Source: a virus. Taken from it: 29,640 nucleotides of DNA. The position numbers and the translations under genes are program-made. The notes under the pieces are model-generated. The model was not told where the DNA came from. It saw only the letters and a list, made by a program, of their open reading frames with translations, and ran no database searches. The DNA lies in IMG/VR virus record IMGVR_UViG_3300034198_022727, positions 1 through 29,640 of that record; one strand, 5' to 3'. The number at the start of each line of letters is the position of its first letter. Positions within the stretch are counted from its first letter, which is position 1. Below are positions 1 through 27,994 of the stretch, one piece after another.

Positions 1-874
1 CCTGGATCTGGTTCAGCTGCCCGAGCTGCGCAGTCCATGCACGCTCTGTCCGCTTGCCGCCCTTCGATGCCCAGAACTCCAGCAGTTCAGAAACCACCGG
101 CAGCAGCGCCGCCGGAATATCCCCCTCGGTTGGCGTGAATCCAGCCTTCCGCGACTTGGGCTGTGGATCGACAGGGACCGTCGCCATGGTCGGTTGAGGC
201 TCGGGAGGGGTTTGGGGTTTGGGCTGCTGAGGGCTCTCCCATGGCTTGACCGGCTGGGTGGGCTGCGGTTGGGCTTCGGTGGCTTGGGGTTGGTGATCCG
301 GATTCACCAGGAAGCCATCCCGGTCTCGATACGGGTGGGTGTCGTTGCGCTCAGCGCGGCGTTGCCCCTTGGGGGGTAAGGGGGGTTCTACTTGCTTTTC
401 TTGATCTTCTTCTCTTGATCTACTTCTCTTGTTCTTCTTTATGGGCATCTCCTGCCCTATCCCTAGGGCATCTCCTGCCCTATCCATGTGCACGTCCTGC
501 CCTATCCCTAGGGCATCTCCTGCCCTAGTCGAATGGTGCATCTCCTGCACTAGGGCATCTGGTGCCCTATCAGGAATGGCCCAATGCGGGTCCCAGATCG
601 TCAGCCTGTACCTGTTCGACAACCTCCTCCCCCGCTCCGAAAACGCACGCTCTCGGACAAGCCAGCCCTTGCGCTCCATCCCCGCCAGGATCGCGCTGAC
701 CGATCGCCTGGAAATGCACGCCTCCTGCGCAAGGAGCGTCATGGACGGGTGGATGTTGGGGTAGTGGCTCTGCAAGCACCAGAGGATCCACCCTTCGAGG
801 GGAGTTGCCTTGCCTCTCAGCCAGTTAGGGAGGGCCGTGAAAGTCGGCTTCTGCCCAATCAGTTCGGTTGTCAT
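1..874 (-). CDS. Replication initiator, lambda-O-like architecture (3' end outside window)
   Basis: An uninterrupted minus-strand frame runs from the ATG at 874 off the left edge (291 codons seen). Residues about 12-95 look like a winged-helix DNA-binding domain (tri-helical stretch around SMTLLAQEACISRRSV, then GMERKGWLVRER). Residues about 102-145 are encoded by a repeat array (RAGDALGIGQ units). Next come a basic, acidic and Pro/Gln-rich linker (146-245) and a C-terminal start (about 246-291) with the LLEFWASKGGKRTERAW pattern found at the end of phage replication proteins. N-terminal binding domain, internal iterons and separate C-terminal domain is the layout of lambda O. It follows the DnaB-N gene by 37 bp in the same direction. 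The initiator role is inferred from architecture. Confidence 0.72.
   Translation of the reverse strand, partial: MTTELIGQKPTFTALPNWLRGKATPLEGWILWCLQSHYPNIHPSMTLLAQEACISRRSVSAILAGMERKGWLVRERAFSERGRRLSNRYRLTIWDPHWAIPDRAPDALVQEMHHSTRAGDALGIGQDVHMDRAGDALGIGQEMPIKKNKRSRSREEDQEKQVEPPLPPKGQRRAERNDTHPYRDRDGFLVNPDHQPQATEAQPQPTQPVKPWESPQQPKPQTPPEPQPTMATVPVDPQPKSRKAGFTPTEGDIPAALLPVVSELLEFWASKGGKRTERAWTAQLGQLNQIQ
387..442. other. Asymmetric AT-rich polypyrimidine/polypurine tract beside the iterons
   Basis: The plus strand is almost pure pyrimidine, with repeated cttct and cttgatc blocks, and clearly less GC-rich than its surroundings. It abuts the iteron array inside the initiator gene. Lambda has an AT-rich purine-asymmetric stretch in the matching place, where the duplex first opens. 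A DNA-unwinding role is inferred; the tract also encodes a basic linker (KKNKRSRSREED). Confidence 0.45.
443..569. repeat. Six 17-bp dyad iterons, putative replication origin
   Basis: Copies start at 443, 466, 488, 511, 536 and 553. The consensus is GGGCATCTCCTGCCCTA, a dyad with arms GGGCA and TGCCC around five bases. Copies 443, 466 and 511 are identical. The copy at 536 has both arms changed together (GTGCA and TGCAC), so the dyad is kept. The copy at 553 changes only the centre; the copy at 488 has one altered arm. Spacing is 23, 22, 23, 25 and 17 bp, close to two helical turns for most. This fits an array of initiator-dimer sites. Confidence 0.7.
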
Positions 875-911: not shown

Positions 912-1415
912 TCAGGACTCGCTGGCTTGAGCCTCGTGCTCAGTGCAGTCAGGGAGCAGCTTTTGCAGCAGCTTTGCCGACCATGTAGCGCGACTGACAA
1001 GCTCCTCAACCGGGAGGGAGAAGTCGCCGGCCATCTCGCTCAGTTTTTCGCCCATGGAAGCTGCGATGCGCCTGAGGTACTTGGTCATCACCAGCCGCAC
1101 GGCAGGCAAGAGGATCTCACCGGACTGTGCGCGGGCGATGTTGTGGCAGTCCTGCAGGACGCTCTTCATTTCGTCGCTGAGCAGGTCCAGCGCCATCAGC
1201 CAGGCTGAAACCGCCTCAACCGTGGGGGCTGCGTTCTGGCACTGCAGCATCAGGGCCGTGCGATAGATCTCCCGATAGGTCTCGTCGATGAAGGCCTCAG
1301 GTAACAGCGTGGGCATCACTTTTCCGATGGCCTCAGGGTCCACCAGGAGCCGCCCAATGATCAGTCTTTCCGCCAACTCATTGGAGATGGGCGCGACAGA
1401 TTTAGGTGATTGCAT
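912..1415 (-). CDS. Stand-alone DnaB N-terminal domain protein
   Basis: 167 aa. From about residue 8 the protein follows the DnaB N-terminal (DnaG-interacting) domain: NELAERLIIGRLLVDPEAI, then LLPEAFIDETYREIYRTALML, a helical middle, and a closing region with YLRRIAASMGEKL. There is no RecA-type helicase domain: no Walker motif follows and the gene stops after the N-domain plus a short tail. I chose the ATG at 1415 because family similarity begins just after it; the frame stays open upstream to 1730 but that part overlaps hairpins. It lies just upstream of the initiator gene. A role as helicase or primase adaptor at the phage origin is inferred. Confidence 0.68.
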   Translation of the reverse strand: MQSPKSVAPISNELAERLIIGRLLVDPEAIGKVMPTLLPEAFIDETYREIYRTALMLQCQNAAPTVEAVSAWLMALDLLSDEMKSVLQDCHNIARAQSGEILLPAVRLVMTKYLRRIAASMGEKLSEMAGDFSLPVEELVSRATWSAKLLQKLLPDCTEHEAQASES

Positions 1416-2903: not shown

Positions 2904-5120
2904 ATGAACGACGACCGTCGCGCCTTTGCCACTTGGCAGCGAGCGCTGATATGGATCGGTTCAGGCGGTAAGTGCGAAAGCTGCGGCGAGGACATCAGCT
3001 TTCGCACCTTCCACGCTGATCACGTCATCCCGCACAGCAAAGGCGGTCAAACCAAGCTCAGCAATGCTCAGGCGCTCTGCGCACACTGCAACTCTCGCAA
3101 GTCAAATCACATGGACTTCAAACAGTTTTTTCCAGTCATTGGCAAGCCTCGCCAATGGCAGCTTGAGTTTCTTGAAAGGTTTCATGGTCAACTTCAGGAG
3201 CTTGCCTCGGACCCTGATCGCGGCTTTCTCCTTGACGCCACACCTGGAGCCGGCAAGACCGTTGCTTACCTGGCCGCAGCCAACATGCTGCAAAAGCTCG
3301 GCCTGATTGATTGGGTGGTGGTGGTCGTTCCAGCCGAGCCGCTGTTGGGGCAGGTTGCGAGGGAGGCGAAGGCCCTCTACGGGCTGGAGTTGCGCCACAG
3401 CGCTACCGCCAGTGGACCCGACCGACTCTATTGCGGTGAGGTGATAACGATTCATTCTGTAAAGAATCGCTCCAATGCCAGCATCATTTCGCGCAACTGT
3501 CGGGTGTTTGTGGTCGTTGATGAAATGCACCACAAAGGAGCTGGTAACACCTGGGGGCAAAGCCTTGTCGCAGCCCTCGGGAAGGCTAAATACAAACTGC
3601 AGTGCACCGGCACGCCGTTTCGCTCCGATGGCGATGCCATGCCATGGTGCAAATACAAGACACTGCCAAGCGGTGAGCTGAAGCTCCTGCCTGACTACAG
3701 CTACAACTATGGCAAGGCTCTTGCTGACAGCATGAAACTTCCGTCAGAGGAGCGAATCGTTCGCGTCGCTCAGTTCAGGCTGTATGACGCTTCGCCGTCT
3801 GCTCCAATTGAAGTGGCGATCAATGGGGAGATTTTTCGACACCTTCTGTCCGACAACCTAAGGGTTGAATACCAGGACGACCGGGGCAAGGAGTTTTGGG
3901 AACGTCTGCGCCGGCTTCGATTTAACGCGGCCATTCGCCCAGACTTCGACTTAGCCCGCCGGATGATTGATGATGCCAACGTCTGTCTTCATGGCCTCCG
4001 AAGAACGCACCATCACGCCGCCGGCCTCATTGTCTGCGCGACTAAGCACCAGGCCGATCGTGCGGCAGAAGCCCTGCGGCAACTAGGAGAGGACCCCGTT
4101 GTGGTCTACGGGGACGCCGAAGGAGAGGCAAGCTCAAGAAAGATCAAGGAATTCCGAAAGCACACCTCTCCGCATCGGTGGATCATCGCAGTGCAGCAGG
4201 TCTCAGAAGGCGTAGACATCAAGCGCCTGCGGGTCTGCGTCTGGCTCACAAACAAGAAAACACGCCTGCTGTTCATTCAGATCCTGGGGCGAATCATTCG
4301 ATGGGAGCACCTAGAGGCCGGCGGCCAAGTGCTGACCCCGAAGCATCAGACCGCTCACATGTTCATGCCTCGCGAAGGGAGCGACTCTCTCGATCGGGAC
4401 TGCCCAACTGATCTGGTCAGGTATGCCAAGGAAATTGAGCAAGACGTTGAGCTGGTGATCGGCCCGCTAGTGACATGCAACATCTGCAACGCCATCAGCC
4501 CATCTTTTGGCTGTGATGGCTGCATTGCAACACGAGATTGCCCCTACTTTCCGGACGGAGAACCACCGCCGCCTCCACCGCCAGGCGATGACTATGAGTT
4601 TCTTGGCGCTGGCGCCGAGGCCTGTGATCACATTCTCAGGGGTGAATTCTGGGATCGAATGACGATGGAGGAACTTCACGCCATGGCGGAGTCGCTTGGT
4701 ATTGAGGTAACTCAATTGATCACGTTCCTCCGTGGCATGAGCCAGGAAGACTTCACCAGGGCGCAAGAGGTTGCCAGGAATGGGAATGCGGCAAGCAAGG
4801 AAGCAACGAAAGATGCTGATGTGGCTGATGTTCCGGTCAATGATTACGAGCAAATGACCTTGGACGAAAAGATGGAAACCTTAAAGGTCAAGGTCAATAA
4901 AAAGGTTAGCCGGCTTGGTGTTCTGATCGCACGCTCAGAAGGATGGAGCGATGAGGACACACGCCGTCAGACCATCTTTTCTGACATCCACAAGCGGTGG
5001 ATCCGGCGATCGGGCAAGCGCAATTCAGATATGACCATCGGAGAGCTGCGCTCCAAGCTCGAATGGCTTGATCAGGAGATTGCATCCCTCACCAAGAGCA
5101 AGGCCGATGCAGTTGTCTGA
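2904..5120 (+). CDS. HNH nuclease fused to SF2 helicase with zinc-binding insert
   Basis: 738 aa. Residues 24-66 form an HNH domain: zinc pairs C24/C27 and C59/C62, HADHVIPHSKGG with H40, and N54. Residues about 83-470 are an SF2 helicase: Walker A TPGAGKT (113-119), motif II DEMH (206-209, in place of DEAH or DEAD), motif III CTGTPFRSD (234-242), and motifs V/VI SEGVDIK (434-440) and QILGRIIRW (459-467). A CxxC...CxxC cluster (C525, C528, C537, C540) follows, then a Pro run and a charged C-terminal tail with helices. It would unwind or translocate on DNA and cut it. In this early operon it may serve phage replication or recombination, or act as a restriction-like defence enzyme; the sequence does not decide. 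The next gene overlaps its 3' end. Confidence 0.8.
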   Translation: MNDDRRAFATWQRALIWIGSGGKCESCGEDISFRTFHADHVIPHSKGGQTKLSNAQALCAHCNSRKSNHMDFKQFFPVIGKPRQWQLEFLERFHGQLQELASDPDRGFLLDATPGAGKTVAYLAAANMLQKLGLIDWVVVVVPAEPLLGQVAREAKALYGLELRHSATASGPDRLYCGEVITIHSVKNRSNASIISRNCRVFVVVDEMHHKGAGNTWGQSLVAALGKAKYKLQCTGTPFRSDGDAMPWCKYKTLPSGELKLLPDYSYNYGKALADSMKLPSEERIVRVAQFRLYDASPSAPIEVAINGEIFRHLLSDNLRVEYQDDRGKEFWERLRRLRFNAAIRPDFDLARRMIDDANVCLHGLRRTHHHAAGLIVCATKHQADRAAEALRQLGEDPVVVYGDAEGEASSRKIKEFRKHTSPHRWIIAVQQVSEGVDIKRLRVCVWLTNKKTRLLFIQILGRIIRWEHLEAGGQVLTPKHQTAHMFMPREGSDSLDRDCPTDLVRYAKEIEQDVELVIGPLVTCNICNAISPSFGCDGCIATRDCPYFPDGEPPPPPPPGDDYEFLGAGAEACDHILRGEFWDRMTMEELHAMAESLGIEVTQLITFLRGMSQEDFTRAQEVARNGNAASKEATKDADVADVPVNDYEQMTLDEKMETLKVKVNKKVSRLGVLIARSEGWSDEDTRRQTIFSDIHKRWIRRSGKRNSDMTIGELRSKLEWLDQEIASLTKSKADAVV

Positions 5121-14831: not shown

Positions 14832-15299
14832 GTGGCCAAGGGTGGGGGCAGGCGTTCTTATGTGCGCGATGGGAATGGGCGTTTTGCCTCAACCCCTGGC
14901 GGTGGCGGTGGTTCTAAGGGCAAGAAGAAAAGCACCATGACTGGCGGCACCCTGGGCAAGCGTTCAGCCCTCAAGAAGGCCAAGGCCAAGCTCGCGGCCA
15001 AGGATCCCGCTGATGATTCGATCAAGGGCAGCAAGTCGCGCAGTGCTCAAAAAGGGGTGGTGACACGCTCTAAGAAGGCACTCAAGGCAGCCAAGAAGGA
15101 ATCCACCAAGGCGCTCGACATCGGCGGCAAGAAGGGCACCGTGGGCAAGCCCAAGGGCCTCAAGCCTGGCGCACTGGCTGAGAGGAGGGCCAAGAAAGCC
15201 GCCGCGCCTCAGGTGAAGGTCAAGCGCAACAGGTTCCTTGACCCGATCGCCCGCAGGATCCTGATTGCTACCGGGCAGCTTCCGGCGAAGAAGAAGTAA
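14832..15299 (+). CDS. Basic RDxxGRF-head protein, paralogue A
   Basis: 155 aa from a GTG. The head is GGGRRSYVRDGNGRFAS followed by a Gly run; the remainder is rich in Lys, Ala and Arg (KKAKAKLAAK, SKKALKAAKKESTKA). The tail ends with a less simple segment (VKVKRNRFLDPIARRILIATG). Near-identical heads occur at 27182, and weaker ones at 20758 and 21323. A nucleic-acid or capsid-interior binding role is inferred from charge and location between portal and MuF. Confidence 0.65.
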   Translation: MAKGGGRRSYVRDGNGRFASTPGGGGGSKGKKKSTMTGGTLGKRSALKKAKAKLAAKDPADDSIKGSKSRSAQKGVVTRSKKALKAAKKESTKALDIGGKKGTVGKPKGLKPGALAERRAKKAAAPQVKVKRNRFLDPIARRILIATGQLPAKKK

Positions 15300-20757: not shown

Positions 20758-21297
20758 ATGGCAAAAGGCAATAGGACTTACAAGCGTGATTCAATCGGCA
20801 GGCTTGCCGGTGGTGGTGGTGGAGGTGGCGGTGGAAAAAGCAAGGGCACCAGCACCAAAAGCAAGAACACAGCTCGCGCAAACGAGCTGAAAGCCAAGGG
20901 CACCACCGGACTGGGAGCCCGTGTTAAGGCCAAGGGATTCGCGGGAGGCAAGGCGGCTCAGCAGCGGGCAGGGGGGCTGAAGAGTGGCGGGACGGTTTCC
21001 ATCCGTGGCGGCGCCAAGGCCTTCACCGTTGGCAAGGGCGGAAAGATGTCAGGGGCTCAGAAGGCATCAACCAAGAAAGCCACAAGGCGAGCAGCATCCG
21101 CGAAGTCTCGCGCCGCTCAGGCCGGCAAGCCCTTGGCCCGCACAAACAAAGCGCCAGTTAGCGCCGCAAAGGCTCGTTACAAGGATCTGGCCAGTCGCGC
21201 ACGTAGCAGCAATCCATTCCGCACAGCTGCTGAGAACCGCAAGGCCGCAGGAGCCAAGAGGAGTCTGAAAACGATGATCGCCAAACGCGGTCGCTAA
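20758..21297 (+). CDS. Basic RDxxGRF-head protein, paralogue B
   Basis: 179 aa from an ATG. The head is RTYKRDSIGRLAGG plus a run of nine Gly; the rest is Lys, Arg, Ala and Gly rich with no hydrophobic core evident. It ends in TAATG, overlapping a truncated copy of the start of the gene at 21902 (see the direct repeat). Role as in paralogue A, inferred. Confidence 0.62.
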   Translation: MAKGNRTYKRDSIGRLAGGGGGGGGGKSKGTSTKSKNTARANELKAKGTTGLGARVKAKGFAGGKAAQQRAGGLKSGGTVSIRGGAKAFTVGKGGKMSGAQKASTKKATRRAASAKSRAAQAGKPLARTNKAPVSAAKARYKDLASRARSSNPFRTAAENRKAAGAKRSLKTMIAKRGR

Positions 21298-21322: not shown

Positions 21323-21898
21323 ATGGCTCGCATCTATCGCCGTGACAGTCGCGGACGCTTTTCCGGTGGTGGCGGGGCGTCAACGTCTGCACGGCGAGCG
21401 GTCAGGTCAAAGGCTGGCGCCTCTGTCACGGCAGACCGGCTGAAGCGCAACGCGGCAACAGGAACGGCAAAGCCAAAGGGCACAATTTCGCGCCGTGCCT
21501 ACAGCCGCTCGATTGACCAGTTCAGTCGCGAAATGCGCAGCATGAAGGGCGCCAAGTCTGGCCCGATCGTCAAAAGGGTCAGCCCTACCCTGAAGCAGCA
21601 GGCAAGAGCGTTAGGTGTTGCCAGCAGGGGAGCAAGGAAGGCACCCACGGTGCTCAGGGACAACGTGTTTGCAACGTCTGCCCCACGCGGAACGATTCCC
21701 AAGAGGGATCCCGGCGCCGCTATTCCCAAGAGCATGAAGCAGCGGCGCACCGCCTCGGGTGATGACAGTTTGATCAGAAAGCAGAAGAGATCAAAGAGCG
21801 ATGCAGCAAGGTCAAGAGCGGCAAAGCTGACGCAGGTTCCGCGCAGGGGAACCATTGGCCTCAGGCCGTTGCCCAACAGAATCCGCCGCCCCATCTGA
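21323..21898 (+). CDS. Basic RDxxGRF-head protein, paralogue C
   Basis: 191 aa from the ATG at 21323. The head is RIYRRDSRGRFSGGGG; the body is rich in Arg, Ser, Ala and Lys, with PKGTISRRAYSRSIDQFSRE and later TIPKRDPG. It has no late element of its own and sits between the two 19-bp direct repeats, so it was probably inserted after the arrangement B to 21902 existed. Function inferred as for the other paralogues. Confidence 0.62.
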   Translation: MARIYRRDSRGRFSGGGGASTSARRAVRSKAGASVTADRLKRNAATGTAKPKGTISRRAYSRSIDQFSREMRSMKGAKSGPIVKRVSPTLKQQARALGVASRGARKAPTVLRDNVFATSAPRGTIPKRDPGAAIPKSMKQRRTASGDDSLIRKQKRSKSDAARSRAAKLTQVPRRGTIGLRPLPNRIRRPI

Positions 21899-27099: not shown

Positions 27100-27144
27100 G
27101 GCACAGGGTCGGTAAGCACCCTGATCAGGATAGGCAGTGTGGGG

Positions 27145-27154
27145 CGGGAAAACT
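27145..27154 (+). promoter_or_regulatory. Late element 8 (CGGGAAAACT)
   Basis: Ends 27 nt before the ATG at 27182 and is followed by N4 and TAG. It restarts rightward genes after the second leftward block. Confidence 0.72.
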
Positions 27155-27181
27155 GCTTTAGGACAGCCCGCCGCAACAGAC

Positions 27182-27994
27182 ATGGCCCGCAGAGGAGGAG
27201 GACGCCGCACCTATGTGAGGGATGCCAACGGGCGGTTTGCTTCCACACCAGGCGGGGGAGGGGGCAGCAAGAGGCCAAAGACGCGGATGGCCGAGAAGGG
27301 GCCCAACAGGCTGACCAGGGACAACGCAGGGAAGATCACCAGCCAGGGCGGCAATGGCGCCACGGCGCGAGGGGGGCGGCTCAGGACGGCAGCAGGGAAC
27401 AAGCGGGCGGTGCAGACGGCGCGGATCAAGGGGGCGGGTGGGAAGCTGCGGAAGCCGATGGGGGGTGGCGCGAAGCCACCCGGCGCAACGCTATCCACTG
27501 GACGCGACAGGAAGCAGGCGGGAGCGGCTCAGAGGCGGCGAACAAGGAAGACAATCAATGCAACAGAAAGCCAGCTAATCGGGTTCCCGCGTGGTGTTAC
27601 AGCCACTGCTGGCGGTGGGCAAAAAGTCAAAATCAAAAAAGCAACAACAATGCAGGCCGGCCTTCTTGGTGGTGTAGATAGAGTCACAAAGTCTACAGTT
27701 TCCCGAGCCGCCTCGTCTCGGGGACCCGCCCCCGGATCTCGCACCGCAAGAAAGGTCTTGGGATTGGCGGCTCGCTCAAAAGAGACAGAAGCCCAGCGAA
27801 TGAAAAGAACATGGAACAGGGCGGCGGGCCATTCTGACCTTGTCAAATCCAAGGATGTCTCAAGTATCACAGAACGCCGACGCAGCAAATCGCCGTATGC
27901 GCCAAAAACCAACAAAAAGATAAAACAGTCCGCCGCTACACAGCGAAAGGCCACGGAGTACCTGTATAGCCGTAGGCGCTCCTTGGGCTTTTAG
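27182..27994 (+). CDS. Basic RDxxGRF-head protein, paralogue D
   Basis: 270 aa from the ATG at 27182. The head, GGGRRTYVRDANGRFAS plus STPGGGGGSK, is almost identical to paralogue A at protein level but differs at many synonymous positions. The body is basic and low complexity (RKPMGGGAKPPGATL, RRRTRKTINATES), with a longer C-terminal half that has its own character (TEAQRMKRTWNRAAGHSD, SSITERRRSKS). It is the largest of the four. DNA or capsid-interior binding is inferred. Confidence 0.65.
   Translation: MARRGGGRRTYVRDANGRFASTPGGGGGSKRPKTRMAEKGPNRLTRDNAGKITSQGGNGATARGGRLRTAAGNKRAVQTARIKGAGGKLRKPMGGGAKPPGATLSTGRDRKQAGAAQRRRTRKTINATESQLIGFPRGVTATAGGGQKVKIKKATTMQAGLLGGVDRVTKSTVSRAASSRGPAPGSRTARKVLGLAARSKETEAQRMKRTWNRAAGHSDLVKSKDVSSITERRRSKSPYAPKTNKKIKQSAATQRKATEYLYSRRRSLGF

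Follow-up and report, generated by a model that had tools for sequence, protein, structure and literature searches.

In phage lambda, the replication origin is nested in the gene for its own initiator, O, between the parts encoding the N- and C-terminal domains, and it consists of four iterons 20-24 bp apart, a purine-rich A+T tract and then a potential inverted repeat. Lambdoid and Stx phages carry type-specific replication modules in which initiator and iterons are matched, with six iterons in the Stx phages (PMC7466680). The locus described here lies at the left end of a 29,640-nucleotide stretch of viral DNA (IMG/VR record IMGVR_UViG_3300034198_022727; hereafter the window). When its sequence is placed side by side with that of lambda, the parts follow in the same order, i.e. 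dyad iterons, purine-rich A+T tract and a third element. A preliminary description of this DNA had likened the layout to that of lambda O, and iterons, purine tract and C-terminal domain are indeed found in matching order. The locus differs from lambda in having six 15-bp iterons of other sequence, a different C-terminal domain and, where lambda has the inverted repeat, a C6-TTA-C6 element with a G-run.

We suggest, with a probability of about 0.88 and on the basis of sequence and analogy, that positions 365-571 constitute the replication origin of this phage and that, like the lambda origin in O, it lies within the gene for the initiator. This reading, which had already been proposed, is supported by matches of the initiator to O-like PHROG profiles, by the lambda layout, by the concerted change of recognition helix and iteron arms, and by the exchange of N-domain and array. 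The features of the locus are as follows.

912..1415, minus strand: gene for a stand-alone DnaB N-terminal domain without the ATPase domain, directly upstream of the initiator gene (Pfam DnaB, E 1.9e-10)
2..874, minus strand: N-terminal 291 codons of the O-like replication initiator gene (PHROG 270/391/678/345; open reading frame in L002)
575..874, minus strand: predicted N-terminal winged-helix DNA-binding domain (AF2 model, Foldseek, alignment)
553..567, minus strand: iteron 1, GGGCA-CCAGA-TGCCC, perfect dyad
536..550, minus strand: iteron 2, GTGCA-GGAGA-TGCAC, changed in both arms at once
511..525, minus strand: iteron 3, GGGCA-GGAGA-TGCCC, perfect dyad
488..502, minus strand: iteron 4, GGGCA-GGACG-TGCAC, imperfect dyad with hybrid half-sites
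466..480, minus strand: iteron 5, GGGCA-GGAGA-TGCCC, perfect dyad
443..457, minus strand: iteron 6, GGGCA-GGAGA-TGCCC, perfect dyad adjoining the tract
388..440, minus strand: A+T-rich, strand-asymmetric tract with purines on the coding strand and three 14-bp repeats, candidate melting site
371..387, minus strand: AACCCCCCTTACCCCCC element (C6-TTA-C6; plus strand GGGGGGTAAGGGGGGTT), encoding PPLPP
365..368, minus strand: GGGG run closing the element, where CCCCTT is able to pair with AAGGGG

The initiator gene leaves the window at its left end, and the window holds its N-terminal part; for the C-terminal domain we used the near-identical viral contig L002, in which the full-length protein has 386 amino acids and which is identical to the window here. 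The PHROG replication-initiation and O-like profiles 270, 391, 678 and 345 match the initiator with E values of 2.6e-9 to 6e-5. The protein is not filed in the Pfam sequence family Phage_rep_O (PF04492), because that family gives no match to it at E up to 1. The AF2 model of the N-domain (pLDDT 76) has the order H-H-H-b-b with SRRSVSAIL as the predicted recognition helix, and its Foldseek neighbours, at modest scores, are MarR regulators, the DnaD N-domain and a Rep-DNA complex; model and neighbours agree with the winged-helix domain proposed for this protein. The model and the domain exchange at the junction described below indicate that this domain is separate from the C-terminal domain, as in a lambda-type initiator. 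BLAST searches against named phages returned weak matches to the N-terminal domain, in Prochlorococcus and Thermus phages only.

Inside the initiator gene, six repeats occupy positions 442-570, each with a 15-bp dyad of 5-5-5 geometry as its core (GGGCA-N5-TGCCC). The dyad is perfect in five of the six, and the exception at 488 is a hybrid (GTGCA/TGCCC). When synonymous codons were shuffled across the whole gene, the observed counts of dyads or repeats were reached in 0/5000 cases, and when they were shuffled inside the array only, in 11-23/5000. The pattern GNGCAN5TGCNC occurs seven times in the window, six of these in the array, with 1.6 expected. These data bear out the preliminary description of six dyads within the initiator gene beside an A+T-rich asymmetric tract, and the compensated change that it noted at 536 (GTGCA...TGCAC) is real. 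Its proposal that most iterons are spaced by about 22-23 bp and lie on one helical face holds in part: the spacings are 23, 22, 23, 25 and 17, and the last two rule out strict helical phasing.

The tract adjoins the iterons on the C-terminal side, as expected of a lambda-type origin. At positions 381-440 the GC content is 0.38 compared to about 0.6 in the surroundings, the AT skew is -0.78, and the three 14-bp repeats lie at 395-439. GC skew is flat here with no switch, a measure that is confounded by gene orientation; the record is a fragment.

Close relatives of the initiator are encoded by four viral contigs, L002 to L005: overall identity is 55% for L003 and 50% for L004, and L005 has only the C-terminal part in common. 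Wider searches with an alignment of the N-domain gave 80 loci and with one of the C-domain 10 loci, marine contigs included, and the same N-domain is found in cultured Prochlorococcus phages. The host is likely a cyanobacterium, because L220, a contig of a cyanobacterial MAG, carries a relative of the initiator with the same iterons.

Limited synonymous change over the iterons had been anticipated for related phages, and this is what the comparison gives: scored on codon pairs for the same amino acid among the four freshwater initiators, the synonymous difference is 0.051 in the array versus 0.365 in the remainder of the gene (0/20000 permutations). The lowest 40-codon window in these genes covers the array, the tract and the EPPLPP codons, and the same stretch has the minimum in two marine groups as well (15 and 30 sequences). 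In 33 non-redundant loci, the array contains 45 perfect 5-5-5 dyads versus 9.7 in synonymous shuffles (z 11.5), a count inflated by copies within one array; the parts of these loci coding for the N- and C-terminal domains have no dyad excess at 5-5-5 spacing. At least nine arm sequences, each paired internally, occur with common geometry and position (GGGCA, GTGCA, GTCCG, GTCCC, GTATC, GTGTC, GTTCA, GTCGT and GTGAC). The array, the tract and the C6-TTA-C6 element are conserved as DNA. As a separate observation, L096 has three adjacent iterons with the spacer GGAGA and L095 has GGAGG throughout, which resembles concerted change within an array.

The iteron arms can be matched to the predicted recognition helix: SRR pairs with GGGCA, GTGCA or GCGCA, SRDKVIK with GTCGT, SRS[ST]VIR with GTGTC, GRNKVVK with GTATC or GTATT, and CRTKVIH with GTTCA, in a tally made with no phylogenetic test over related sequences that are statistically non-independent. 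Two cases appear to be parallel and independent, i.e. the marine L064, which groups with marine relatives (SRD, GTCGT) but carries SRR and GTGCA, and two SRS[ST]VIR clades with GTGTC. The encoded N-domain is the predicted reader of the dyads, and N-domain and array change together. The matching points to a specificity code by which, in many uncultured phages, iteron arms can be read from the recognition helix of the initiator.

N-domain and array are exchanged as one module, because L005 and L094 have another HTH domain and another array in front of the same C-terminal domain. Between L005 and L002 the C-terminal domain is 94% identical, and neither the HTH domain nor the array of L005 (CCCCTCCCCCAAATGGGG) is related to its L002 counterpart; L094 repeats this pattern, and divergent domains with arrays of their own occur in L092 and L095. 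The junction at which the exchange takes place is close to the EPPLPP codons. The locus has matched initiator and iterons in common with the lambdoid and Stx modules, and six of the latter as in Stx phages, and is unlike these modules in that, between L002 and L005, N-domain and array give way to an unrelated HTH domain and array ahead of a C-terminal domain that is 94% identical. These exchanges amount to a natural experiment in which the DNA-binding domain and the putative origin move together. Nested origins as such are already known; what is new are the helix-arm specificity code, the exchange of modules among cyanophages, and the element discussed below, which is shared with other phages.

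Combining these data, we propose that dimers of the N-terminal winged helix would bind the six 5-5-5 dyads, as co-variation and module exchange suggest, and that the assembled initiator, by analogy with lambda, would strain and then melt the adjoining A+T-rich tract with its 14-bp repeats. The C-terminal domain and the product of the downstream gene, perhaps with the DnaB-N-domain protein encoded upstream, would then bring the helicase. The C6-TTA-C6 element and the G-run would mark the boundary of the melted tract on its C-terminal side, candidate roles being those of a hairpin, a quadruplex, or a transcript end or primer signal. The DnaB-N-domain gene is kept in L005 and L007 and apparently absent beside the initiator in L003; its product is possibly a helicase-recruitment partner that binds the host helicase or its loader. 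A lambda-type origin would have a P-like helicase-loader gene next to it; the downstream gene, a conceivable lambda-P-like or AAA+ loader, overlaps the initiator gene in relatives, has no Pfam or PHROG match and yields a low-confidence, all-helical model with no PDB matches.

Alternatively, the dyads could form an operator at which the winged-helix domain represses its own gene, with replication starting elsewhere. The fold of the N-domain is MarR-like and dimeric repressors typically use dyad sites, but the sites are found some 300 bp into the gene and always between the DNA-binding and C-terminal domains, a constrained A+T-rich tract comes after them, and the protein families involved are O-like, primosomal or DnaD-like; we consider this explanation improbable, and autoregulation may occur alongside origin function. 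It is very improbable that the repeats are mRNA hairpins, i.e. signals for translation or stability and not DNA sites, given that the departure at 488 makes no G-U pair, that marine arrays keep the 5-5-5 geometry despite A+T-richer arms, that arm sequence goes with the recognition helix in the HTH domain that the gene encodes, and that the tract, which forms no hairpin, is constrained as strongly as the array, even if every dyad could fold with a 5-nt loop. The idea that a repetitive linker (RAGDALGIGQ) has simply expanded, the repeats being protein-coding or mobile and without DNA function, has the slightest chance of all, as the dyads exceed synonymous shuffles, synonymous change collapses over the array, most spacings are not multiples of three and the arms co-vary with the recognition helix.

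The feature is larger than initially outlined: array and tract stand, and it extends further to 365-387, holding GGGGGGTAAGGGGGG, a third component that had been missed. On the minus strand, positions 371-385 read CCCCCCTTACCCCCC and encode PPLPP; they adjoin the tract directly. The exact 17-mer AACCCCCCTTACCCCCC is present in at least 120 viral contigs, and control scans with ATT or TCA in place of TTA gave 0 and 6 matches, respectively, the T-to-C change of the TCA variant being synonymous in one reading phase. Among the 120 matches listed, 74 lie in open frames of at least 170 codons; a G-run follows within 14 nt in 63/74 coding matches versus 4/46 of the others, all three reading phases are used (37/26/11; PPLPP, TPLTP or PPYPP), and the coding strand is the C-rich strand in 72/75 coding cases.

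The 58 non-redundant element-bearing proteins among the matches listed are largely of replication types: each of two replication-initiation families is matched by 26 of them, and primosomal or DnaD-like loader families account for further matches. Ten proteins were spot-checked: nine had at least one match at E < 0.001 to replication-initiation, primosomal, replisome-organizer or DnaD-like families, which in two of the nine was weaker and stood behind unnamed families, and the tenth matched nothing. In many DnaD-like, DUF1376 and primosomal phage initiators, repeats and an A+T-rich tract likewise precede the same C6-TTA-C6 element, but the N-domains and repeats are unrelated to those of this phage. 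In 49/51 genes among the matches listed, the stretch of 45 nt preceding the element is rich in A+T (0.60 vs 0.42), and in the 200 nt upstream direct repeats beat all 40 synonymous shuffles in 29/51 (mean score 30 vs 15), these 51 genes having been found by the 17-mer only and about 13 of them belonging to this cyanophage family; the downstream side has no excess like that upstream.

The element is apparently an undescribed, widespread, origin-associated one. In a limited library of open-access papers, a string search located the core in vertebrate mitochondrial CSB-2 blocks only, and an earlier description is possible; when the reverse strand or shorter cores were searched, no phage paper was among the titles returned. 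The element is not essential to the iteron-tract architecture, because iterons and tract persist without it in marine relatives and in L016. That it is universal in O-like genes is ruled out: the exact TTA form is absent from these relatives, from lambda and from the named phages compared, and Cronobacter phage phiES15 has TAA in place of TTA. Origin function cannot be claimed for every copy, because some are non-coding, e.g. those that stand without a G-run before a terS-like gene in marine contigs. In L111 (6164-6180) and similar marine loci, the element has its G-rich strand in sense and precedes a frame that reads as terS-like, a setting unlike that in the initiator genes.

A hairpin of the C/G element is possible, with a stability that is not exceptional compared to shuffles. 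A terminator scan flags an antisense hairpin with a terminator-like transcript shape, at a number of matches close to chance, and the G-rich strand could form a quadruplex. The gecko CSB-2 is AAACCCCCCTTACCCCCC and includes the full 17-mer (PMC6295329), and the frog CSB-2 has only the C6-TTA-C6 core in common (PMC4395372). One published abstract describes G-quadruplex formation by mitochondrial CSB II and a presumed role of these structures in the replication of mtDNA (PMC8780183). CSB-2 blocks thus have the same core sequence and lie in replication/transcription control regions, but those regions are mitochondrial and the element here is in a phage gene; we offer the comparison as a hypothesis and claim no homology. 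One reading, which we consider unlikely, is that the C6-TTA-C6 element and G-run form, irrespective of host, a third component in many phage origins and work like CSB-2. In that case a transcript of the G-rich strand (GGGGGGUAAGGGGGGUU, then the U/C-rich tract) would adopt a folded or quadruplex structure, stop within the melted tract and supply the RNA 3' end from which replication is primed.

A short element whose DNA sequence is kept in different reading frames and in several initiator families can help to locate phage origins from sequence, and, if it acts in priming or melting, would bear on how replication is started by unrelated initiators in unrelated hosts. Elsewhere in the window, 2904-5120 on the plus strand encodes a 738-amino acid protein in which an HNH endonuclease is fused to a ResIII/helicase domain, and the plus strand also encodes four small, basic, Gly-rich proteins (14832-15299, 20758-21297, 21323-21898 and 27137-27994) with a common N-terminal pattern like Y.RD..GRFA..GGGGG, which are possibly paralogous.
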